From Arthrobacter sp. 135MFCol5.1 (GTDB taxonomy: Bacteria > Actinomycetota > Actinomycetes > Actinomycetales > Micrococcaceae): a stretch of DNA of 64,000 nt. The stretch covers positions 711,830 to 775,829 of the forward strand of contig NZ_KB895452.1 of assembly GCF_000374865.1 (NCBI RefSeq). Reading direction: 5' to 3'. How positions within the stretch are numbered: the first letter of the stretch is position 1; each line of letters begins with the position of its first letter. Position numbers and translations under genes: made by a program. The notes below the pieces were generated by a model. That model saw only the letters and a list, made by a program, of their open reading frames with translations, searched no databases and was not told the origin of the DNA. Below, piece by piece: positions 5,999-27,612 of the stretch.

Positions 5999-6020
5999 GC
6001 CGGCGGCGTTCCCCGCCGGC
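5999..6020 (+). terminator. Hairpin after the ANTAR gene
   Basis: GCCGGCGG (5999-6006), a 6-nt loop and CCGCCGGC (6013-6020) form a perfect 8-bp GC stem nine bases after the stop. There is no U-tract, as is usual in actinobacteria. Confidence 0.6.
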
Positions 6021-6057
6021 CCGGGAGCCAGCGACGCTGCTGACTCCCGGAGTGTAC

Positions 6058-6113
6058 GGCGTGGATGTGGCCCACCCCCGAATCATGGATTTCCCTTGGG
6101 CCACATCCGCGCC
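6058..6113. repeat. Large inverted repeat, 17-nt arms with one mismatch
   Basis: Arm 6058-6074 (GGCGTGGATGTGGCCCA) and arm 6097-6113 (TGGGCCACATCCGCGCC) pair over 16 of 17 positions around a 22-nt loop. It lies between the convergent ANTAR and monooxygenase genes, so it may be a bidirectional terminator, but it is longer than the simpler hairpin at 5999 and could also be a protein-binding palindrome. The rest of the interval 6021-6293 shows no gene. Confidence 0.6.
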
Positions 6114-6293
6114 AGCTAGGGGGGAGGCGGATGCACGCCCGGAAGGGGCTCGGGTGTTGTGGGGAGAACGGTCACGGATATCCTCAGACGGTGCGTTGCT
6201 GGCCGTCTGCCTGACCTTGGGCCAGCCTACAAGCACCTGCCTTCCGGCAACAACGTGCAAGCGCACAATTTTCTGTCAAGATCATGCAAGGAT

Positions 6294-7742
6294 TCAGCGG
6301 GCTGGACCCAACCACTCCGCCATCGCTTCCGGCAGGCCCGACGCCGAGTGCCCGCCGGCCCAGGCCACGTAGCCGTCCGGACGCACCAGCACTGCAGTGG
6401 GTGCAGGCACCACGCCCAGCACCGGAAGCTCCCACGCGCCGTCGTACGTCCCGGAAACCTGCCGCACCCGCCCAGTCCACGCACCCGCGTCCAGGCCGGC
6501 ACCGCCCAGTTCCAGCAGCACTGGCCGCGCCTGGTGCAACAGCTCATAAACCCGCACGGATCCCCCAACGGTGGCGATATCCAGGTCGGGCATCCGGCGT
6601 CCCACGAGGGGGTGGCCCGTGCCAGGACCGTAGGCGACGTCGAGGCCGGTGACCAGTGCCGTCACCGGATCGGCAGCGCCCTCGCGGCGGAGGACCTCGT
6701 CCAGCAGGTCCCGCAGCGCCTCCTGCCGGGGATCGGCCTTCTGGAACAGGGACTGCGCCATGGTGTATTTGAGCGCGCGGGCGCCTGCCGGGTGGCGTTC
6801 GGCATGGTAGGTGTCCAGCAGGTGGTCCCCGGCTATTCCGCGGACCACCTGCGCCAGCTTCCAACCGAGGTTCACGGCATCCTGGAGGCCCAGGCCAATG
6901 CCCTGCCCGCCGGTCGGGGAATGGACGTGGGCGGCGTCGCCGGCCAACAGGACGCGGCCCTTCCGATAGGACTCCGCCTGCCGGGTGGCGTCCGTGAAAC
7001 GCGAGAGCCAGGCAGGGCTGTGCACGCCGAAGTCCGTGCCGAACACATCGGTCAAGGCGCGGCGCAGGTCCTCCAGCGTGGGCTCGGTGGCGGGACCCAG
7101 CTCCGCTTCTGTCACCACCACCCGGACCATGCCGTCTCCCATCGGGTACAGCCCGTGGGTGCCGCGGGCATCCACTGTGCCCTGCTGCACGGGTTCGCCG
7201 GCCACCTTCACCTCCGCGATCAGGCTGCTGCGGGTGGCGTCCGGGCCGGGGAAGTTGATCCCCGCCGAGCGCCGCACCACGCTGCGTCCGCCGTCGGTGC
7301 CCACCACAAACCTGGCCCGCACGGGTCCGCCGCCGGCGAGCTGGACGTCGGCGCCGTCGTCGTCCGCAACCACGCCGGTGACCTCCACGCCCCGCCGGAC
7401 CTGCACGCCCAGCTCCTCTGCCCAGCCCAGCAGCAGCCGCTCGATGTGGTTCTGGAACAGAGCCAGCGTGAACGGGTGGCGCGTGGGCAGGCCGGCCAGG
7501 TCCAGCTGGGTGGCGCCAAACGTTGCCGCCTGAACGGTCTTACCCTCGGCGAGGAACCGCTCCGCGATGCCGCGCTGGTCCAGCAGTTCAATGGTTCGCG
7601 CGTGGATTCCACCGCCGCGGGAACCGGCCAGTTCCTGGGACGGCCGCCGCTCCAACACCAGCGCCTCCACGCCCGCCAGGCGCAATTCCGCCGCGAGCAT
7701 CAACCCCGTGGGCCCGCTCCCCACAATCACCACATCATGCAT
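6294..7742 (-). CDS. FAD-dependent aromatic monooxygenase, rifampicin monooxygenase-like
   Basis: A 482-residue group A flavoprotein hydroxylase. The N-terminal Rossmann motif is VGSGPTGLMLAAEL, followed by the LERRP acidic/arginine end of the FAD fold, and the second FAD motif is LLAGDAAHVHSPTGGQGIG near residue 280. The C-terminal 100 residues have the thioredoxin-like fold usual in phenol hydroxylase and Rox enzymes. The start sequence MHDVVIVGSGPTGL and overall length resemble rifampicin monooxygenase Rox, but related enzymes act on other aromatics, so drug inactivation is an inference. No regulator is adjacent. Confidence 0.88.
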   Translation of the reverse strand: MHDVVIVGSGPTGLMLAAELRLAGVEALVLERRPSQELAGSRGGGIHARTIELLDQRGIAERFLAEGKTVQAATFGATQLDLAGLPTRHPFTLALFQNHIERLLLGWAEELGVQVRRGVEVTGVVADDDGADVQLAGGGPVRARFVVGTDGGRSVVRRSAGINFPGPDATRSSLIAEVKVAGEPVQQGTVDARGTHGLYPMGDGMVRVVVTEAELGPATEPTLEDLRRALTDVFGTDFGVHSPAWLSRFTDATRQAESYRKGRVLLAGDAAHVHSPTGGQGIGLGLQDAVNLGWKLAQVVRGIAGDHLLDTYHAERHPAGARALKYTMAQSLFQKADPRQEALRDLLDEVLRREGAADPVTALVTGLDVAYGPGTGHPLVGRRMPDLDIATVGGSVRVYELLHQARPVLLELGGAGLDAGAWTGRVRQVSGTYDGAWELPVLGVVPAPTAVLVRPDGYVAWAGGHSASGLPEAMAEWLGPAR

Positions 7743-16495: not shown

Positions 16496-16761
16496 AAGCG
16501 GGCTAAGTCGCCGACCACCCCTTGCCGTCGGCGCCGGGAGGTGATGCCGACGCGCAGGGCAGGGCGTTGCCCACCCGTGCGAGTACCCGCCCGCCGATCC
16601 AAGTAGCGATCAATTCCAGTCGCTGGAAATTCGGGTACCACTACGTGTTGTTGCGCCCCTTTGCGTTCGCAAATATTGGGTCATCGATCCACCGGAAGGC
16701 ACCTCGATGGAGCCACCTATGGGGGAACGGGTTCTCAATCACACACACAAGGAGTCTTTCC
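16496..16761 (+). promoter_or_regulatory. Leader of the SipW-signal operon with two palindromes
   Basis: No gene is apparent. TTCCAG-TCG-CTGGAA (16614-16628) and TTTGCG-TT-CGCAAA (16660-16673) are short palindromes that could be operators. A strong ribosome binding site (AAGGAG, GGAG at 16751-16754) precedes the ATG at 16762. The long leader suggests regulated or stabilised expression. Confidence 0.4.
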
Positions 16762-17217
16762 ATGCGCCCAATGACCAAGAAGAACAAGATCGCCGCCGTC
16801 GCCATGTCCGCAGCCCTGGTGGCTGTTGGTGGCGGTGCCGCGTATGCCTACTGGAGCACCAACGGTTCGGGTACCGGCAACGCGGCCGCCTCGTCCGGGA
16901 CGAAGGACGTCGTCCTGCACACCTCGTTCGCCGCTGACATCGCACCAGGCGAGACGAGGGCCGTGACCTACACGGCTGACAACCCGAACACGTCCAGCAC
17001 TGTCGTCGGTTCCTTGACCCCGAGTGTCGTGACGAGCGACCCGACCAACTGTCTCGCCAGCTGGTTTACGGTCGACGCGTCCAACACACCGACGACCGTT
17101 TTGGCAAATACGACCGGAACGACTGTTGGTACCGGCACCTTGACCTTCAAAGACACCGCCACCAATCAAGATGCCTGCAAGAGCGCCACTATCACCGTGA
17201 ACGTCAGCAGCAAGTAA
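16762..17217 (+). CDS. Exported protein with SipW-type signal peptide, possible major fibre subunit
   Basis: 151 residues. The N-terminus (KKNKIAAVAMSAALVAVGGG, then AAYAYWST) has the A-Y/F-A-Y/F-W ending typical of SipW-dependent signal peptides in TasA/camelysin-type proteins. The mature part is a beta-rich Thr/Ser domain with an NPN motif and cysteines in DPTNCLASW and NQDACKSAT. The same NPN ... C ... C(K/Q)GAT pattern recurs in the next two genes. A terminator-like hairpin right after this gene suggests it is made in excess over the downstream proteins, as for a major subunit. No cell-wall sorting motif. Polymer formation is inferred. Confidence 0.75.
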   Translation: MRPMTKKNKIAAVAMSAALVAVGGGAAYAYWSTNGSGTGNAAASSGTKDVVLHTSFAADIAPGETRAVTYTADNPNTSSTVVGSLTPSVVTSDPTNCLASWFTVDASNTPTTVLANTTGTTVGTGTLTFKDTATNQDACKSATITVNVSSK

Positions 17218-17230
17218 ACCAACAGCCAGT

Positions 17231-17254
17231 CGGGGGCGGCGCAATCCGCCCCCG
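17231..17254 (+). terminator. Hairpin between first and second gene of the SipW-signal operon
   Basis: CGGGGGCGG (17231-17239) and CCGCCCCCG (17246-17254) enclose a 6-nt loop, 13 bases after the stop. It could be a partial terminator that sets subunit ratios. Confidence 0.7.
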
Positions 17255-17294
17255 GCTTGCCGTCGTCTGCACCAAGGAACAAGGGGGGCACAAG

Positions 17295-18431
17295 GTGCAC
17301 AAGCAGGACGGGCCATCGCGGCACGGCACACGGAACGGCATCAAGGCGGCGTTCATCGCGTTGTTGTTGCTGCTGGCAAGTGCGGGGGCGCTGATCGCGG
17401 CATCGAACAATCCAAAGCCGGGCATCACTGTGCAGGTCTCCCCTGCCAGCCAGTCCGTCCAGCAGGGCCAGCCGGCAACCTACACGGTGACGGTGACGTC
17501 CACCGGAGGCTTCAGCGGAGCCGTCAACCTGGCCACCGCGGGACTCCCGGCCGGCGCGGCAGGCGCCTTCACGCCGTCGTCCGTCACCCTGACCTCCGGC
17601 AGCACCTCGACCGCAACGCTGAACGCCACCACCAGCGCCAGCACCCCGGCCGGAACCAATGCCCTGACCATTACCGGGACCAGCGGCAAGGTGTCCGGCA
17701 GCGTGGAGGCCAGCCTCACCGTGAATTACAAGATGTCCTCCGCGCTCTCGGTGGCCGCCACACCGGATTCCGTCACCGTCCCACCCGGTGCAACGGCCGT
17801 CTACACGCTGCAGTTGGCCCGCAACAACTTCCCCGCCGCAGTATCCTTCAGCGTCCAGGGCGGACTGCCCGCCGGCGCCACGGCAACGTTCTCTCCCACA
17901 CCGACAACCGGCAACTCGAGCACGCTCCAGGTGGCAACCACGGCCGCCTCACCAACCGGCAGCTACAACCTGTACCTGGTGGGGACCGGAAAGGACGCCG
18001 CCGGGAAGTCGCAGTACGCCTACGCGAACGTCCAACTGGTCTTGGATTCAACCATCAAGCAGTTCACCCTCTCCGGTAACGTGCCCGGGACTCTGTCGCC
18101 CGGTACCTCGGCCGCACTGGACCTGCAGATCAGCAACCCGAACAACAAGTCTGTTTCCCTGACCAACCTGTCCGTAGCTATCGCGGGGGTTACCAGGAGC
18201 GCGGATGCCACAGCGAGGAACCTGGCGTGCACGGCGGCCGATTTCGCCCTCACCCAGTACAGCGGCCCGTACCCCCTGATGGCGCCGACTGGCAGCAGTT
18301 CGCTGTCCGGTCTCCGCCTGGCACAGTCTGCTTGGCCGCGGGTGGGGATGCTGGACAGTTCCAGGAACCAGGACGGTTGCAAAGGCGCAACCCTCCAGCT
18401 CACGTACTCGGGATCAGGACAGGGGAACTGA
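17295..18431 (+). CDS. Exported Ig-like-repeat protein of the SipW-signal operon
   Basis: 378 residues from GTG 17295 (GGGGGG upstream). A signal peptide or membrane anchor lies near residues 18-37 (AAFIALLLLLASAGALIAAS), lacking the AYAYW ending of its neighbours. Two homologous beta domains of about 90 residues follow (VQVSPASQSVQQGQPATYTV and the parallel PDSVTVPPGATAVYTLQL), then a C-terminal domain with NPNNKS, two cysteines and NQDGCKGATLQL, resembling the first and third gene products. It may link or nucleate the fibre. Function unknown. Confidence 0.75.
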   Translation: MHKQDGPSRHGTRNGIKAAFIALLLLLASAGALIAASNNPKPGITVQVSPASQSVQQGQPATYTVTVTSTGGFSGAVNLATAGLPAGAAGAFTPSSVTLTSGSTSTATLNATTSASTPAGTNALTITGTSGKVSGSVEASLTVNYKMSSALSVAATPDSVTVPPGATAVYTLQLARNNFPAAVSFSVQGGLPAGATATFSPTPTTGNSSTLQVATTAASPTGSYNLYLVGTGKDAAGKSQYAYANVQLVLDSTIKQFTLSGNVPGTLSPGTSAALDLQISNPNNKSVSLTNLSVAIAGVTRSADATARNLACTAADFALTQYSGPYPLMAPTGSSSLSGLRLAQSAWPRVGMLDSSRNQDGCKGATLQLTYSGSGQGN

Positions 18432-18432
18432 G

Positions 18433-18921
18433 ATGACCAGCATCCACAGGCATCGCGGCATCAAGGCCGCGGCCCTCGCCGGGCTCCTGGCCACTGCCGG
18501 CGCCGGTACCGCCTACGCCTACTGGTCCGCGGCAGGCGGAGGCTCCGGGTCCGCCGCGGCCGGCACCATGCAGGCAGTCACCGTCGACGCCCTGGTGGCC
18601 GGCGACAACCCGAAGACGGCCCTCATCCCGGGCGGCAGCGCCGACGTCGTGCTCCGCCTGACCAATCCCAACCCCTATTCGGTGCAGGTTTACGGCGTCA
18701 CTGCGAACGGCCCCGCCGCCGCTGATGCCGCGCATCCGGGCTGCACCACCACCGGTGTCCGCTTCGCGGGTGCCGCGCCGCTCACTCCCGCAACGTACGT
18801 TGCCGCCAACTCATCAGCACTCATCACCCTCCCCGGAGCGGCCACCATGGACACCACTTCCCTCGCCGCCTGCCAGGGCGCAACCTTCAGCGTCCCCGTG
18901 ACGGCGGAGGTGCGGAAATGA
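18433..18921 (+). CDS. Exported protein with SipW-type signal peptide, minor subunit candidate
   Basis: 162 residues starting one base after the preceding stop, with AGGGGA just upstream. The signal peptide (RGIKAAALAGLLATAGAGTA then YAYWSAAGG) again has the AYAYW ending. The mature domain contains NPNPYSVQVYGV, GCTTTGV and LAACQGATFSV, the same NPN/two-cysteine scheme as the first gene. The ATGA overlap with the next gene shows tight coupling. Confidence 0.78.
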   Translation: MTSIHRHRGIKAAALAGLLATAGAGTAYAYWSAAGGGSGSAAAGTMQAVTVDALVAGDNPKTALIPGGSADVVLRLTNPNPYSVQVYGVTANGPAAADAAHPGCTTTGVRFAGAAPLTPATYVAANSSALITLPGAATMDTTSLAACQGATFSVPVTAEVRK

Positions 18922-21035
18922 GGTTCCTCCTGCTGCGCCGCCCGTCCCGCCGGCTGCCCTGGATCGTTACCGCCCTGCTGCTCCTGCTGGGAACGGGCAC
19001 CGCCGCCTACGCGTTTTGGGCCTCAAGCACCAGCAGCAGCAACGCGGCCGCCGCTGCAGACACGCTCTCACCAGGATCGAAGCCTGCGGTCACCGCCGCC
19101 GGCTCCGCATTAACGGTCACCTGGGCCGGCGGCACCACGGTGAACGGACGCGCCGCCACCGGCTACACCGTTGCACGCTATTCGGCGGCCACCGGCGGCA
19201 CGGCTACCCCTGCCACGGGCGGCTGTGCCGGGACCGTCACCACGCTTACCTGCACGGAACTGTCTGTGCCCGGCGGCATCTGGTACTACACAGTGACGCC
19301 TGCGATTGCCCTGTGGACCGGCGCCGAGAGCCCGCGAAGCAACGGCACCAGCAGTGACTCCACCGCACCGGTGGCCACCGTTTCCGGAATCTCGCCCACG
19401 CCCAACGCGGCCGGCTGGAACACCACAAGCCCCGTCAGCGTGACGGTCACGGCAGATGACGGGGCCGCCGGGTCCGGCGTCGCCTCCATTTCCTACGTGC
19501 TCGACGGCGGCGCGCAGCAGACGGTCAGCGGCGCTGTGGCCAATGTCCCCGTCAGCGGCGACGGGACCCACACGCTCACATACTTCGCCACGGACAAGGT
19601 GGGCAATGCAGGGTCCGCGCAGAGCCAGACAGTGCGGATCGACACCCAGGCACCAGCCGCGCCGGCGTTCACCCCTCCGGCGTACGTGAATGCCGGCAAC
19701 GTTGGAGCGGTGCCGCTGACAGGCACCGCTGAGGCGGGGTCCAAGGTGACGCTTGTTGCCAGCGATCCGGGTTCCGCGCATTCCATTTCGGCCACGGTGA
19801 CGGCATCGGGGACGGGTACCTGGTCTGCATCCCTGGACTTGACCAGCCTGAACCAAGGCGCAGTCACCTACTCGGCCACGGCCACGGACGCCGCGGGCAA
19901 TACCAGCCCGGCCAAGACGGCTACTTCCACCAAGGACACGGTGGCTCCGGCCGCAGCGCAGTTCTCGAGCGTGCCGCAATACGTGAACAGTGCCGGGGTT
20001 GGTTCGGTTCCCGTCGCCGGCACCGCTGAAACCGGCGCGGTGGTGACCGTTTCGGCGATGAGCCCGGGTTCAGCCGCGGTGGTTACCGGCACGGCGACTG
20101 CCACCGCTTCAGGCTGGGCGGTGAATCTCAACCTCACGTCCCTGAGGGACGGAACGGTGACGTACACGGTCACCGTGACGGACTCCGCGGGCAACGCCAG
20201 CGTCCCTGCCACTACGACGGACACGAAGGACACCGTGGCACCCGTCCTGACCATCACGGCGCCGATGTACGTGAACCTCAGCAACTACACGGCCGTCCAA
20301 ATTAGCGGCACGACAGATACAACCGGGCTTATTACGGTCACTGCCAGAAGCAGCGTGGCACCCAGCGTCACAAAGCAGGTATCGGCTTCAGGCGCCTCCT
20401 GGTCCACCAGCATGGACTTGGCCTCGCTCGATCAAGGCATCCTGACGTTCACAGCATCTCTTACCGACGCGGCCGGTAACACGGGCAGCGCAACCGCGGC
20501 GAGCTCCACCACAAAGGACACAGTGGCACCCACAATCATGAGTATAGTGCTGGCCAATGGTGGCACCGTTGGGACAGCAGACGCAGGAGACACAATCACT
20601 ATCGTGTATTCGGAGTTCATGGACGCTACCAAGTTCTGCTCCTCCTGGACTACTCCCGGAACCCAAAATCTCAACGCCAACAACGACGTTACGGTCACGT
20701 TCAACCACACCAGCTCAACCAACTCGATGACGGTATCCAGCAAAACGTGCACCCTGAACGTTGGAACTATCTCGCTAGGCGCTACTGCGAACTATGCATC
20801 GACAACCTCGCCGGTGGTCTTCGTCGGCGCGAATGCTGGCGCCAGTACGGTGAGCTGGAACCCTGCTACCAACACACTGATCGTGAGACTGGGTAGCCCT
20901 AAGAACAACACCGGCGCGCAGGGAACCAACATTGCGGCAGACGTCCCCGTCTACACAGCTAGTTCAAGCCTCACGGACGCGGCAGGCAACCCCTTCGCTA
21001 CGGCCAACAGCCCGTCAGGGGCATCGCGGTTCTGA
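18918..21035 (+). CDS. Large exported repeat protein with SipW-type signal peptide
   Basis: 705 residues. The signal is basic, then LPWIVTALLLLLGTGTAAYA followed by FWASS, ending in the A-F-W form. A fibronectin-like domain (about 55-145) is followed by a HYR/Ig-like domain and three tandem Ig-like repeats of about 90 residues, each ending in TDAAGNT/TDSAGNA plus a DTVAP linker. The last 180 residues differ (GDTITIVYSEFMD) and resemble SwmB-type calcium-stabilised beta domains. No LPxTG or other anchor is visible. Likely a surface or matrix adhesin working with the three smaller proteins. Confidence 0.82.
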   Translation: MRFLLLRRPSRRLPWIVTALLLLLGTGTAAYAFWASSTSSSNAAAAADTLSPGSKPAVTAAGSALTVTWAGGTTVNGRAATGYTVARYSAATGGTATPATGGCAGTVTTLTCTELSVPGGIWYYTVTPAIALWTGAESPRSNGTSSDSTAPVATVSGISPTPNAAGWNTTSPVSVTVTADDGAAGSGVASISYVLDGGAQQTVSGAVANVPVSGDGTHTLTYFATDKVGNAGSAQSQTVRIDTQAPAAPAFTPPAYVNAGNVGAVPLTGTAEAGSKVTLVASDPGSAHSISATVTASGTGTWSASLDLTSLNQGAVTYSATATDAAGNTSPAKTATSTKDTVAPAAAQFSSVPQYVNSAGVGSVPVAGTAETGAVVTVSAMSPGSAAVVTGTATATASGWAVNLNLTSLRDGTVTYTVTVTDSAGNASVPATTTDTKDTVAPVLTITAPMYVNLSNYTAVQISGTTDTTGLITVTARSSVAPSVTKQVSASGASWSTSMDLASLDQGILTFTASLTDAAGNTGSATAASSTTKDTVAPTIMSIVLANGGTVGTADAGDTITIVYSEFMDATKFCSSWTTPGTQNLNANNDVTVTFNHTSSTNSMTVSSKTCTLNVGTISLGATANYASTTSPVVFVGANAGASTVSWNPATNTLIVRLGSPKNNTGAQGTNIAADVPVYTASSSLTDAAGNPFATANSPSGASRF

Positions 21036-21846: not shown

Positions 21847-22266
21847 ATGAAGACCACCTTAAAGTCAGCGATCGCCAGCCTCGCCCTCGCAGCAGCCATC
21901 GGCGGTGGTGCCTTGGCCAGTGCGGCGTTGCCGGCCAATGCCGCCACTACGGACTCGAGCACCAGCCAGTCCAGCACCGGCACGTCCACCAGTCAGGCTC
22001 CGCGGGACGAATCAAAGGGCGGCCACCAGGCCAACGGCATCACGGAGACGCTCCTCACCGGGGACACCGCGACCAAAGTGACGAACGCCGCCCTGGCGGC
22101 GAACCCCGGCGCCACCATCCAGCGCGTGGAAAACGACGCCGAAAGCGCCACCTACGAGGCCCACATCATCACGTCGGATGGAACGCGCGCCACCGTCTAC
22201 CTGGACGCCTCCTTCACCGTGACTTCCACGGAAACCGGCGGCCCCGGCGGCGGCCCGCAGGGCTGA
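21847..22266 (+). CDS. Secreted PepSY-like domain protein
   Basis: 139 residues from ATG 21847 with AAGGAG upstream. A Sec signal peptide (IASLALAAAIGGGALASAAL, cleavage near ANA) precedes a Ser/Thr-rich linker and one PepSY-like domain: TGDTATKVTNAALAANPGA, then RVENDAESATYEAHI and TVYLDASF. PepSY domains often act as inhibitors or sensors outside the cell. The C-terminus is Gly/Pro-rich. Followed by a bidirectional terminator shared with the convergent metalloprotease gene. Confidence 0.8.
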   Translation: MKTTLKSAIASLALAAAIGGGALASAALPANAATTDSSTSQSSTGTSTSQAPRDESKGGHQANGITETLLTGDTATKVTNAALAANPGATIQRVENDAESATYEAHIITSDGTRATVYLDASFTVTSTETGGPGGGPQG

Positions 22267-22357: not shown

Positions 22358-24823
22358 TCAGCCGGCGCTGGAAGTTGGCGCCGGAACAGGCGTGGCACCG
22401 TACCCGGCGTCATTGGTGGGTGCCGGCGTCGCACCCGTAACGGCCGACGTCGGCTGCCCGCCTTCCACGTACTGGCCCGCCGGTGCCGTGGCCGCCCCGG
22501 TCCCTGCCGGCGCAGGTGCGGCGGTACCGGCGGGTGCTGTCGCGGGAACCGCAGCAGGGCTGTCCACCGCCGGGGCGGTGGGCCCCGTGGAGGGAACGCC
22601 GCTGGGGCCCGCGGACGCCGGGGACGTTGCCACCGAGGTCCCTCCGGCCGCGGAATTGCCCTTGACGATGGACGTGATCTGGTCTTTGTATCCGGACAGC
22701 GTGGCTTGGATCTCGGAGAGCGGCACGTCCTGGATGTGCCTCCCGTAGTCGGCGATCTGCGCCCACAATGCCTCGAGCTGCTGCTTGGCGGCCGCATCCA
22801 GCGGACCGTCGATCGTGAGGACAAGCTGGCTGGCCAGCGCATAGGTCAGGCAGTCCAGGCAGTTGTAGTTGGCGGCCGCGGAGAGGTTCTGCGGCACGAT
22901 GACATCGGCCTGCCCCACCACCAGCACCACCTGGAAACCCACGGCCACGGCCGCGCACCCTGTGCAGTTGGCGAAAGCGTAGGCCTCGTTGGTGCTGGTC
23001 ACAGGCTCGCCGTCCTCGGCCCATACGAGCGCGAATGCCAAGCTGTAGGCCACGGAGCCGTCGGTGGTGTTGACGGCGAGCGCCTGGTTTCCGTCGGCGG
23101 CCGGCGCGGCTGGCCGGTCGAACGGGAACACCCAGGACGGAGCGGATGCGGGCGAGGCACCGCCGGACGCAGTGGCGGACGTTGCACCCGCCGGGGATCC
23201 GCCAACGGGCACCAAAACCAAGCTCAGCTGCGGGTTGTCCCGGGTGGGCTTGGCGGCTCCAGCGGGCCACAACGCAAGGGTCCGTCCGGCACTGCCCTGC
23301 CGCAACGCCCCACTGTCGCGGACGGGAAGGATGGCCCGGGTGGCGTCACCGAGCGTCCCGCGTTCGTACGCCTGGACCGGACGGTACGTCCCGCCGTCGG
23401 GCCACCACGCCCAGGCCAGCCCGGCGAGCAGGACGGCCACGGCACCCATGGCGATGGTCCGCTGGACCAGCTTGCCGCGGGTCTTCTGCCACAGCCCCGT
23501 CACCAGCTGCCGCAGCAGCCGCACCACGATGTAAAGGACGCCCAGCACCGGCACCGCCACCACCACCATGGCCAGCGCCCGCACCGCCACGCCCGCGAAG
23601 TCACCAGCGGAAAGGCTGGCAGCGAGCTGTTCCTGCTGCTTCCCCGCGCTGGCCCAGCCCGTGGCCAGCAGCCTGGGCAGGGACAGCACCATCATCACCA
23701 TGCTGAAGAGCAGTACAGGCACGGTGACCAGGACCCAGGCGGTGACGACGGCGCGTGCCCAGGGCTTGAGCACCTTGCTTTCCGGGTTTCCCCACCGCCA
23801 CGGCAGGATCCCCAGGAGGGTGGGTTTGATCCGTTGGAAGAGGTCCGGCACCCCGGTGGCGTCGGCGAGGATGTGGTACCCGTCGTACTTCACCAGCGGG
23901 ATCAGCTGGCGGACCATCTGCAGGATCTGGGTAACCACCACCAGCAGCAGCGCGTCGAAGCCGGTGGCCCACCACAGCCCCATGATGGCCACCGCCACGA
24001 TCGCGTTGAAGTACAGGCCGCCGAGGTCGGTGCGGATCCTGCCGCCGCGGCCCAGCCGGTAGGAGTCGGTGACGTCGGTGAAGAATGCCGGCCACAAAAG
24101 ATACAGCCCGGCCCCCATGGCGCCGGGGGTTGCGCCGCCCTTGCGGGTGGCGGCGGCGTGGCCGAATTCGTGGAAGCCGGCAGAGAGGATGGTGACGGCG
24201 AGGATCAGCAACAGGAGGGCGGGCTGGGCAAACGCCTCGTGGGTGGCCGAGCCCAGGCCCTTGACCATGAGCACCCACCAGCAGGCCGCCAGGAACGCCG
24301 CGGTCACGGCCACCACGATCAGCGGGTTGAACAGGACAGCGAACGGCGCGGTGATCCTGCGGGTCCGTTCGGGATCCGTCACGATGTAGCGGAACCGCAG
24401 GCCCAGCAGCGGGTTGGACTTCTTGACCTCGGGCTGGCTGCCGTCGGCAAGCCGGAGCAGGCCCATCGGGAGCAGCTGCGAATCCATCAGGGTGCGGACG
24501 TTCTCCGCGCTGACCAGCCGCCCGGATCCCTCGCTGGCGTGCCGGGCGATTCCGTCGAGGTCCCGGTTCCCGTCCGCCGCTTCCAGCACCAGGTACAGCA
24601 GCCGGGTGAGCTGGAGGGTCTGGCCGTCGCCGCGGCGCACCAGGGCGGGCGGCTCACGGTAGCCGGAGCCCTCAGCCGTGCCAAGCAGCTGCACGCCGTC
24701 GGCCAGGGCCGGAAGGTGGGCTCCCGCCGTCGTACGTCCTTGGCCCGGCGGTTCCTGGGCGAGGGAAACGCGTGACGACGGCGGGCCCGCCTCGGGAGGC
24801 GGGCCGCCGTGGGTTTGGGTCAT
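22358..24823 (-). CDS. Membrane M50-like zinc metalloprotease with PqqD-like N-terminal domain
   Basis: 821 residues. Residues about 45-125 resemble a PqqD/RRE peptide-recognition domain (PALVRRGDGQTLQLTRLLYL and a winged-helix pattern). Multiple membrane segments follow. HEFGH at 218-222 is the HExGH zinc motif, and KYDGYH near 314 supplies the third ligand Asp as in M50 proteases. After about residue 470 comes an extracytoplasmic domain with two CxxC pairs (NCTGC and NCLDC, about 50 residues apart) and an Ala/Pro/Thr-rich tail. Six bases separate it from the upstream repeat-protein gene, its probable substrate. Confidence 0.82.
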   Translation of the reverse strand: MTQTHGGPPPEAGPPSSRVSLAQEPPGQGRTTAGAHLPALADGVQLLGTAEGSGYREPPALVRRGDGQTLQLTRLLYLVLEAADGNRDLDGIARHASEGSGRLVSAENVRTLMDSQLLPMGLLRLADGSQPEVKKSNPLLGLRFRYIVTDPERTRRITAPFAVLFNPLIVVAVTAAFLAACWWVLMVKGLGSATHEAFAQPALLLLILAVTILSAGFHEFGHAAATRKGGATPGAMGAGLYLLWPAFFTDVTDSYRLGRGGRIRTDLGGLYFNAIVAVAIMGLWWATGFDALLLVVVTQILQMVRQLIPLVKYDGYHILADATGVPDLFQRIKPTLLGILPWRWGNPESKVLKPWARAVVTAWVLVTVPVLLFSMVMMVLSLPRLLATGWASAGKQQEQLAASLSAGDFAGVAVRALAMVVVAVPVLGVLYIVVRLLRQLVTGLWQKTRGKLVQRTIAMGAVAVLLAGLAWAWWPDGGTYRPVQAYERGTLGDATRAILPVRDSGALRQGSAGRTLALWPAGAAKPTRDNPQLSLVLVPVGGSPAGATSATASGGASPASAPSWVFPFDRPAAPAADGNQALAVNTTDGSVAYSLAFALVWAEDGEPVTSTNEAYAFANCTGCAAVAVGFQVVLVVGQADVIVPQNLSAAANYNCLDCLTYALASQLVLTIDGPLDAAAKQQLEALWAQIADYGRHIQDVPLSEIQATLSGYKDQITSIVKGNSAAGGTSVATSPASAGPSGVPSTGPTAPAVDSPAAVPATAPAGTAAPAPAGTGAATAPAGQYVEGGQPTSAVTGATPAPTNDAGYGATPVPAPTSSAG

Positions 24824-24829
24824 CTTGGC

Positions 24830-25516
24830 TTACTGCTGCAGGTTGGACGTCTGGCCGGCTGTGGCGTTGGCCTCGCCGTCGATGTGCTGCGAAATGGTGG
24901 CGCTCTGGTCCGAGATGGCGTACGCCTGGCTGTCGATGGAACCGATGTTCGCGGCAACGGCCGCATCGATGGGGGCGGCGACGTTGGCGTTCGCGGCCAC
25001 GGCACCGTTGATGGGGGCGGCGATGGCGGCGTCGGCGTCCAGGTTCACGTCCACGTTCAGCAGGTTGCCGTTCAGCGCGCCCGCTGCGTCGGTGACGCCA
25101 CCGGTGCTTGTGGGGGCAGGTGCTGTTCCGGTGGTCCCATCCGTGGTTCCGGTGGTGCCAGCATCGGTGGTGCCTGTGCCCGTCTCGGTGGTGCCGTCGC
25201 CCTGGCCGATCACGCTGTCCTGGGCGGAGTCGGCATTGGCGTCGGCCACGATGCCCTGGTCAATCGCGGCGTCCTGGTTCGAGAGCGCCTGCGCGTCAGA
25301 GCCGAAGGAGAGAATGTTGGCCGAGGCTGCCGCGTCGATGGGGGCCGCCACGTTCGCGTTGGCGGCTACGGCCAGGTCGATGGGAGCCGCAGCGTTAATG
25401 CCCAGGTCCAGGTCCGCGTTCAGGTCCAGGACGGACGCCACTTCCTTGTCCGGCAGGGCGGTGGCCTGCTCAGACATCAGTTCATCATCGGTGAGGGGAC
25501 GCAGTTCGTTGTCCAT
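24830..25516 (-). CDS. Repeat-rich protein without signal peptide, candidate substrate of the adjacent M50 protease
   Basis: 228 residues from ATG 25516 (GGAGG upstream). The first 30 residues are acidic and leader-like (LTDDELMSEQATALPDKEV), with no hydrophobic signal. The rest is two homologous modules: N-terminal (about 38-105) with AAPIDLAVAANANVAAPIDA and C-terminal (about 150-228) with AAPINGAVAANANVAAPIDA, each followed by a similar Ala/Asp/Gln stretch. A Thr/Gly linker separates them. Composition is strongly biased to A, N, D, I and V. I do not recognise the family. The tight spacing with the M50/PqqD-like protease suggests recognition through the leader and processing or membrane delivery. 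Confidence 0.78.
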   Translation of the reverse strand: MDNELRPLTDDELMSEQATALPDKEVASVLDLNADLDLGINAAAPIDLAVAANANVAAPIDAAASANILSFGSDAQALSNQDAAIDQGIVADANADSAQDSVIGQGDGTTETGTGTTDAGTTGTTDGTTGTAPAPTSTGGVTDAAGALNGNLLNVDVNLDADAAIAAPINGAVAANANVAAPIDAAVAANIGSIDSQAYAISDQSATISQHIDGEANATAGQTSNLQQ

Positions 25517-26808: not shown

Positions 26809-27612
26809 GTGGTTCGCAATGACGCGCTTTACAAATTGTGGCTGGAGTTCTTGGGGGACGTCCTTCAGGGGCCGCCGGCCGCGTCCACGCACTACGAGGC
26901 ACAGCTTCTTAAGCTCATGGCCGAGTCGTTCAACGGTTCGTTTGCATCGCGGAACCACGTGAGCCCGGAGTGGGAGAACCATATCCTTTCCTGTTGGCCG
27001 CTCGACTACATTCCGAACGACCCTCCGGGCGGGTACGACTTCAGGCAACAACCGCTGCTTCGCTGGTTTGTGTTCACCGGGCAGACCGCGCCGCAGTCCT
27101 ACGGCCGGGTCCCCGCCGCGTTGGCCAGCGACCACCAGAAAGGGGTTTGGGAAGACTTGTCCCGCCCCTGGGGCGTTAACCATCAGCTCTCCATACCGCT
27201 GCGACTCGGTGGCCCCGACCATAACGCCTACCTTGTCTCCCGGCCTGACAGTGACTTCACTGAACAGGAGATGGCGCTGGCCGGACTGCTGCAACCCGTG
27301 CTCACCGGGCTGTCCCTCCAACTGAGTGTTGCCGCGGCTCAGGCCAACCTGGTCCCGAAGAGCTCAGCACATGATTTGACGGGTCGTGAGCTGACAATCC
27401 TCACGCTCCTGAGTGAGGGTCTAACGGCAGAAGCACTCGCCAGGCGGCTCACCATATCGCCACGCACTGCCACCAAACACCTTGAGCATATTTACCGCAA
27501 ACTGGACGTGCGTGACCGGCTCATGGCAGTCCAAAAAGCACGCCTGTTGGGCATCCTGGCACCAACACCTGAGATCCCGGCCGGAGCGCCGTCGAAGCGC
27601 AGCTGCACGTAG
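26809..27612 (+). CDS. LuxR family transcriptional regulator
   Basis: 267 residues. The N-terminal 170 residues have no domain I can name, though the layout (FTEQEMALAGLLQPVL before the HTH) resembles a GAF-type sensor. The C-terminal LuxR HTH is clear: LTGRELTILTLLSEGLTAEA, LARRLTISPRTATKHLEHIY, RKLDVRDR. The natural end would be near residue 250; the last ~17 residues (after LLGIL) are antisense to the remnant of another gene and probably acquired by a junction. Divergent from the small secreted-protein gene at 26504. Confidence 0.87.
   Translation: MVRNDALYKLWLEFLGDVLQGPPAASTHYEAQLLKLMAESFNGSFASRNHVSPEWENHILSCWPLDYIPNDPPGGYDFRQQPLLRWFVFTGQTAPQSYGRVPAALASDHQKGVWEDLSRPWGVNHQLSIPLRLGGPDHNAYLVSRPDSDFTEQEMALAGLLQPVLTGLSLQLSVAAAQANLVPKSSAHDLTGRELTILTLLSEGLTAEALARRLTISPRTATKHLEHIYRKLDVRDRLMAVQKARLLGILAPTPEIPAGAPSKRSCT

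Follow-up and report, generated by a model that had tools for sequence, protein, structure and literature searches.

Introduction

In daptide biosynthesis, a RiPP recognition element (RRE; RiPP stands for ribosomally synthesized and post-translationally modified peptide) is fused N-terminally to an intramembrane site-2 (M50) protease, a fusion found via short co-occurring open reading frames (ORFs), and MpaP acts as the daptide leader peptidase (excerpted text of PMC10036551). In the production of the epipeptide EpeX, the M50 protein EpeP is thought both to cleave and to export the peptide, as stated in excerpts of PMC10885120 and PMC7614699. Here we analyze a pair of genes from Arthrobacter sp. 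135MFCol5.1 that encode a 228-residue repeat protein with a leader-like N-terminus and an 821-residue M50-type membrane protease. The pair occupies positions 22,358 to 25,516 of a stretch of 64,000 nucleotides (assembly GCF_000374865.1, contig NZ_KB895452.1, positions 711,830 to 775,829), and the whole of this stretch is hereafter referred to as the window.

Like MpaP and DapP of the daptides, the M50 protein appears to be an RRE-M50 fusion with a small leader-bearing neighbor (the daptide motif being ELExMEAP in the available part of PMC10036551), and it resembles EpeP, YydH and LiaK as a membrane protease of the kind to which the cleavage and export of a leader-bearing peptide are ascribed (PMC10885120, PMC12871923 and PMC7614699, in excerpt). 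It scores 110.1 bits against the daptide protease model NF041824, where the cut-off is 300, and 33.1 bits against the epipeptide protease model NF058609, where the cut-off is 225; all 18 distant homologs examined match both models, the best of them well under cut-off. The differences from daptides extend to the precursor, which ends in NLQQ and has no C-terminal Thr, to the 11 neighboring genes scanned (16.5–31.8 kb of the window), among which there is no oxidative decarboxylase, aminotransferase or methyltransferase, and to the extra outer domain with two CxxC pairs and the protein-sized cargo. Furthermore, the loci whose M50 proteins do exceed the NF041824 cut-off (L182 and L183) lie outside the clade that carries the leader described below. 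The difference from epipeptides is that no epimerase or immunity-transporter family recurs at most of the 27 loci of this clade, while RseP, SpoIVFB and MjS2P differ from the window protein in that the latter adds the RRE-like and outer CxxC domains and has its probable substrate encoded next door.

A preliminary description of this DNA, made from its letters and ORFs, had known of no described system of this form. Both families' cut-offs are indeed missed, but the RRE-M50 fusion of daptides and the cutting and export ascribed to EpeP have been reported, in the excerpts cited above, and for this reason the pair seems to be a variant of something known and not unprecedented. Judged by sequence, it shares the logic of daptides and epipeptides and belongs to neither family. 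In the open-licence PubMed Central literature we found no description of this pair, nor of an unmodified, hypervariable, protein-sized cargo of an RRE-M50 protein. The reading toward which we lean is that of a conserved two-gene unit in which the M50 protein binds the leader, cuts it off, and likely releases what remains, a two-module and probably beta-rich protein, to the surface of the cell.

Conservation of the gene pair

Both genes lie on the minus strand, that of the repeat protein at 24830–25516 (ATG at 25516) and that of the M50 protein at 22358–24823, with 6 bases between the stop of the former and the start of the latter; the ORF list gives the same layout and lengths as the preliminary description. 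A scan of species genomes yields 59 loci, chiefly from Arthrobacter and Pseudarthrobacter, with the remainder from a Microbacterium metagenome-assembled genome, Geodermatophilaceae, Blastococcus, Nocardioidaceae and Frankiales. The repeat-protein gene is found directly upstream of the M50 gene on the same strand in 58 of these, the last (L054) beginning within the M50 gene, such that the two homologs are adjacent across actinobacteria in 58 of the 58 loci long enough to show both, which was the co-occurrence that the preliminary description had proposed to check, and the outcome does not refute its reading. The compared loci extend 8 kb on each side, and since the flanking window genes are not conserved across them (each matches at most 5 of the 59, except for a histidine kinase with paralog-like matches of about 25% identity in 9), the conserved unit consists of the repeat protein and the M50 protein only. 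On the same counts, an operon including the neighboring genes was rejected. The repeat protein is single-copy in the source genome.

Leader and cargo across the M50 clade

A search with the NF041824 model covered 396 genomes of the phylum, and the surroundings of 63 M50 genes besides that of the window were taken (61 with E <5e-20 and two weaker). A profile seeded with the window M50 protein separates 27 close M50 proteins from 36 others. Since the lowest score within the clade is 493 (L134), against 418 for the next locus (L182), and the profile is window-seeded, this division rests more on the tree than on the score. In a maximum-likelihood tree of 60 M50 proteins, which left out 4 of the 36 non-leader loci (two without HExxH and two too short), a branch with 100/100 support separates the 27 rows that bear leaders (26 loci plus the window), together with L133, from the rest, L182 and L183 included. 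Genome G008, of the same genus, holds both a leader system (L173) and an M50 protein over the daptide cut-off (L183), so the two coexist. Among the best 120 matches to the clade profile, those that are named belong to Gaiellaceae, Rubrobacteraceae, Thermoleophilaceae, Solirubrobacterales and Egibacteraceae.

At 26 of the 27 clade loci, the M50 gene is adjoined by genes for one to four small proteins with an N-terminal motif close to LxxEELExQxxxxLPxRE. These leader proteins were initially chosen by profile, motif and eye and were tested statistically only afterwards. With a leader model trained by leaving one locus out at a time, the M50 neighbor ranks first among the 36–180 ORFs of its locus in 26 of 26 cases (E 5e-16 to 5e-3), and the best value in the 36 other M50 loci and L133 is 0.8 or worse; one misread leader row (L125|11030) was part of the training set in this test, and was excluded from the identity comparison and from later leader models. 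Within a single M50 clade, the common leader type is shared by 42 measured proteins from 26 loci, and it is mostly acidic, with a mean net charge of −4.3 (range −8 to +3).

Inspection by eye separates eight types among the cores that follow this leader. Some are one-module proteins (NANVAAPVNAAVAANVLSDDSVAYANAEQDVDIDQ or variants rich in Asn and Gln), and that of the window is a fused two-module form; the others are a form with two Cys (L138, L140, L171), a short hydrophobic LLGxPLxG form (L139, L181, L177, L134), an Arg-rich form ending in Pro/Tyr (L137), Gly/His-rich forms (L178), and one type each for L167 and L179. Between core types, the identity of leaders is 34% while that of cores is 23%, against 21% for shuffled cores (267 pairs); within core types, cores are 68% and leaders 48% identical. 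A shared leader on unrelated cores is the pattern expected of a system that reads the leader and carries the core as cargo, and at the level of sequence the combination of one leader type, many unrelated cores and one M50 clade supports recognition of the leader by the M50 protein. At L178, whose genus is probably Streptomyces to judge from its many chaplin domains, three leader proteins stand in tandem (6014-7411), with two conserved terminal Cys in their Gly/His-rich cores.

Chaplins are Sec-exported. Three distant sets of cores, those of L138, L140 and L171, show similarity to the chaplin family PF03777 in HHalign (probability 60%, E 8.5e-5 as a single comparison), with none of 40 column shuffles scoring as high. 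Chaplin kinship of the window modules was rejected, as 40 of 40 and 28 of 40 shuffles scored as high and PF03777 was absent from 35 homologs.

The nature of the cores bears on two other explanations. An RRE-like domain, a leader and a hypervariable core are typical of RiPPs, the models that come closest are those of RiPP proteases, and the cores of L138, L140, L171 and L178 contain two Cys, all of which would fit a true RiPP pathway, with modification of the core by an enzyme from elsewhere in the genome and removal of the leader by the M50 protein only afterwards. We consider such a pathway quite improbable, given that the window cargo has about 200 residues and no Cys, and that no modifying enzyme recurs beside the M50 gene. 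When ORFs of at least 80 residues within 7 kb were compared, no modifying-enzyme or peptide-exporter family was common to most of the 27 clade loci, and the 11 scanned window neighbors, one of which is a Na/Ca exchanger, likewise include no peptide-modifying enzyme or peptide exporter. Because no tailoring enzyme recurs, the cargo is probably unmodified. The second explanation keeps the processing that we propose but takes the products to be bacteriocins or signaling peptides instead of structural surface proteins. It draws on the LLGxPLxG-like runs of the short hydrophobic cores and on the kinship to the epipeptide protease family, and it seems unlikely: in the window, two conserved strand-like modules and a linker make up a cargo unlike a small toxin. 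No immunity-like gene is seen among the recurrent groups, though a small basic protein could be one.

This small basic protein, which lacks a leader, adjoins the leader genes at L121:8612-8812, L123:10328-10555, L124:1804-2064 and L125:8607-8897, and at L133:10263-10520 it adjoins the M50 gene. It shares a module with the leader proteins (HHalign E 1.8e-7) and is perhaps a minor subunit, a chaperone or an immunity protein.

The repeat protein of the window

The first 26 residues of the window repeat protein (MDNELRPLTDDELMSEQATALPDKEV; 25439–25516) carry a net charge of −6, in agreement with the acidic leader-like N-terminus first described, and are conserved in 35 aligned rows; this is the segment that would be bound by the RRE-like domain. 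No signal peptide is visible by eye (no predictor was run), again as described. The window leader (LTDDELMSEQATALPDKEV) is a diverged form that is recognized only via intermediates. A leader model including fused members of other genera places the window protein at the top of all 513 ORFs in the window (E 0.0022), and a model built without fused-type loci ranks the leader protein first in all 7 of the fused-type loci in the phylum set (E 5e-5 to 0.09). Short cores align to window-type modules with HHalign E values of 2e-13 and 1e-12, far above column shuffles. The tie of the window protein to the leader family rests on the leader model with intermediates, on these module alignments and on the M50 tree. 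A conserved leader and hypervariable core beside an RRE protein, which is a trait of RiPP precursors, is found for the family as a whole and, by way of the fused-type intermediates, for the window protein.

Behind the leader, module 1 (residues ~40–106; 25199–25399) and module 2 (residues ~151–228; 24833–25066) are joined by a Thr/Gly-rich linker, and their homology, which had been claimed from the letters alone, is borne out by an HHalign E of 2e-26. The first half of each module is Ala/Asn-rich, and the second half has alternating conserved residues: 15 of the 16 conserved residues in 195–228 are even-numbered and 12 of the 17 in 72–106 are odd-numbered, a parity statistic exceeded in 0 of 2000 permutations. 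This alternation is the pattern of beta strands. The AlphaFold2 model of the protein is weak and usable only as a hint of strands, which it places at the alternating stretches. Taken together with this model, the two-module cargo is probably beta-rich, and we infer that the modules build a surface polymer. Pfam and NCBIfam give no match to the window repeat protein and Pfam matches none of 35 homologs, including for the peptidoglycan-binding domain after which homologs are named at NCBI.

The M50 protein and its outer domain

The M50-type protease is identified by its ORF, its NCBIfam model scores, a conserved zinc site, the AlphaFold2 model and structural alignment. The zinc motif HEFGH (residues 218–222; 24158–24172) and the KYDGYH motif, which holds D314-G315-Y316 (23876–23884), are both present as first reported, as are both CxxC pairs. 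H218, E219, G221, H222, D314, G315 and Y316 are invariant in 56 aligned M50 rows, leaving F as the only variable residue of HEFGH, and from general knowledge of M50 proteases we take DGY to be the probable third zinc ligand site. The membrane core (residues ~144–476; 23396–24394), delimited by model helices and hydropathy, aligns with RseP, SpoIVFB and MjS2P, such that HExxH and DG lie within a membrane core, as in M50 / site-2 proteases. PF02163 is matched in 9 of 18 distant M50 homologs and not in the window protein.

The preliminary description had also assigned a PqqD/RRE-like winged helix to the N-terminus, and AlphaFold2 predicts one with confidence at residues 35–128 (24440–24721), with strands at 45–49, 60–63 and 69–72, helices at 74–82, 89–100 and 106–117, and a predicted local distance difference test (pLDDT) value of ~86–97. 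Foldseek with the whole M50 model returned nothing at E 0.001 or better; VIA-align afterwards superposed the predicted domain on RRE structures and the core on the three proteases named above. Sequence similarity to RRE and PqqD domains is barely detectable: Pfam gives no match in the window protein and one PqqD match in 18 distant homologs (E 0.0084), and the likeness is therefore one of predicted fold, with the PqqD-type winged helix of RRE domains seen in the model and its structural alignment. Sequence searches of the PDB, started either from the M50 protein or from alignments of the M50 proteins, the outer domains and the repeat proteins, gave no convincing match.

The outer domain (residues 481–735; 22619–23383) contains its CxxC pairs at residues 620–623 (22955–22966) and 655–658 (22850–22861), and all four Cys are invariant in an alignment of 5 rows. 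Its pLDDT is mostly <60, and neither the Foldseek nor the VIA-align lists gave a fold, though according to the tool notes absence there means little. The CxxC region is found at 12 of the 27 clade loci and at 0 of the 36 other M50 loci, either fused to the M50 protein or encoded separately, and L122 has such a region with no M50 gene nearby. Since the separate copies of L123 and L169 begin with what looks by eye like a Sec signal peptide, the CxxC domain of the M50 protein most likely sits outside the membrane. The Pro/Ala/Thr-rich C-terminal tail (residues 736–821; 22361–22618; pLDDT <50) perhaps spans the wall.

M50 proteases commonly act in regulated intramembrane proteolysis, and the repeat protein could accordingly have a sensory or regulatory role and be degraded by the M50 protein; a LuxR-type family does recur near 8 of the 27 clade loci (L134 and L177 included). 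We give this explanation very little weight, as the repeat protein and its homologs have no known domain, and the several tandem leader proteins per locus and the hypervariability of the cores fit cargo.

Proposed mechanism

In the mechanism that we propose, the cytosolic acidic leader would dock on the predicted RRE-like winged helix, the M50 core would sever the leader within the membrane near LPxKE/LPxRE, and the remainder would cross the membrane without a dedicated transporter. The outer CxxC domain would then receive the released cargo, and the modules would assemble on the cell surface.

The export step is where another explanation applies, namely that the M50 protein is a leader peptidase only, with export of the core left to an unlinked transporter or some other general route. 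The export role of RRE-M50 proteins is one that we infer here, the proteolytic and export systems of EpeX are noted as unknown in the excerpted text of PMC10885120, and a recurrent ORF group at 4 of the 27 clade loci includes an ATP-binding cassette (ABC)-type ATPase in L137. Still, most clade loci have no peptide exporter in common, none is seen among the 11 scanned window neighbors, the flanks are not conserved in the 59 loci, and the outer domain, being fused or co-encoded, suggests a hand-over within the same protein; we thus regard a peptidase-only role as somewhat unlikely.

Several observations weigh against processing and release by the M50 protein. Only linked genes were compared, which leaves room for an unlinked transporter or modifying enzyme, and the recurrent-neighbor comparison would miss small or diverged families. 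The leader model built without fused-type loci ranks the window protein 9th (E 6.8), and only 3 of 58 window-type homologs reach E 1e-3 with it. The repeat protein is poorly modeled, with a mean pLDDT of 48.7; 15 of the 27 clade loci lack the CxxC domain (some contigs stop close by); and among 150 genomes of the genus, the repeat protein is found in 81 and not in the other 69 (E 1e-20). Two loci depart from the pairing of leader and M50 protein: L133 has no leader protein beside its M50 gene, although its genome (G167) has three leader proteins and an adjacent separate CxxC protein on another contig, which counts in favor of the proposal, and genome G006 has three leader proteins at the end of a 5.6 kb contig (L135) and no M50 match, which reflects either an assembly gap or an orphan set. 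For the epipeptide system, deletion of epeP does not fully abolish EpeX production, according to an excerpt of PMC10885120.

A more general form of our reading is possible but tentative: a Sec-independent actinobacterial route, in which a single RRE-M50 protein would read the leader, cut it, and pass varied unmodified cargo to a CxxC receiver that builds beta-rich polymers. That the cargo of such a route ranges from short hydrophobic peptides up to 200-residue two-module proteins is an equally tentative suggestion. If processing and release occur as proposed, this would be a mode of protein processing and export not described so far, with an intramembrane protease as the processing and export station for whole proteins that bear a short interchangeable leader, and the leader logic of RiPPs would be widened beyond modified peptides. 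A large set of proteins that at present carry the names hypothetical, peptidoglycan-binding or putative peptide zinc metalloprotease would also gain a role (homologs of the two proteins number 3858 and 3364 among the scored candidates), the question of whether EpeP and other M50 proteases export the substrates that they cleave would become open to a direct test, and the leader could be used as a tag.

Neighboring genes and a second M50-linked pair

Just past the end of the M50 gene, on the opposite strand, a protein with a PepSY-like domain is encoded at 21847-22266 (NCBIfam E 4.3e-11, below cut-off). The region 16522-21035 encodes a series of proteins that look exported, have YAYWS-type N-termini and Ig-like repeats, and recall surface proteins of the TasA/camelysin type. 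Also close to the pair, at 26809-27612, is the gene of a LuxR/GerE regulator, and this window copy is found in 0 of the 59 loci.

Outside the leader clade, 19 of the 36 M50 loci (L141-L150, L152-L154, L156-L158, L162, L163 and L166) have a conserved Cys-rich, zinc-finger-like neighbor of ~70 residues (DCWHCRRTAVGTCRFCGR...), which constitutes a distinct M50-linked pair.

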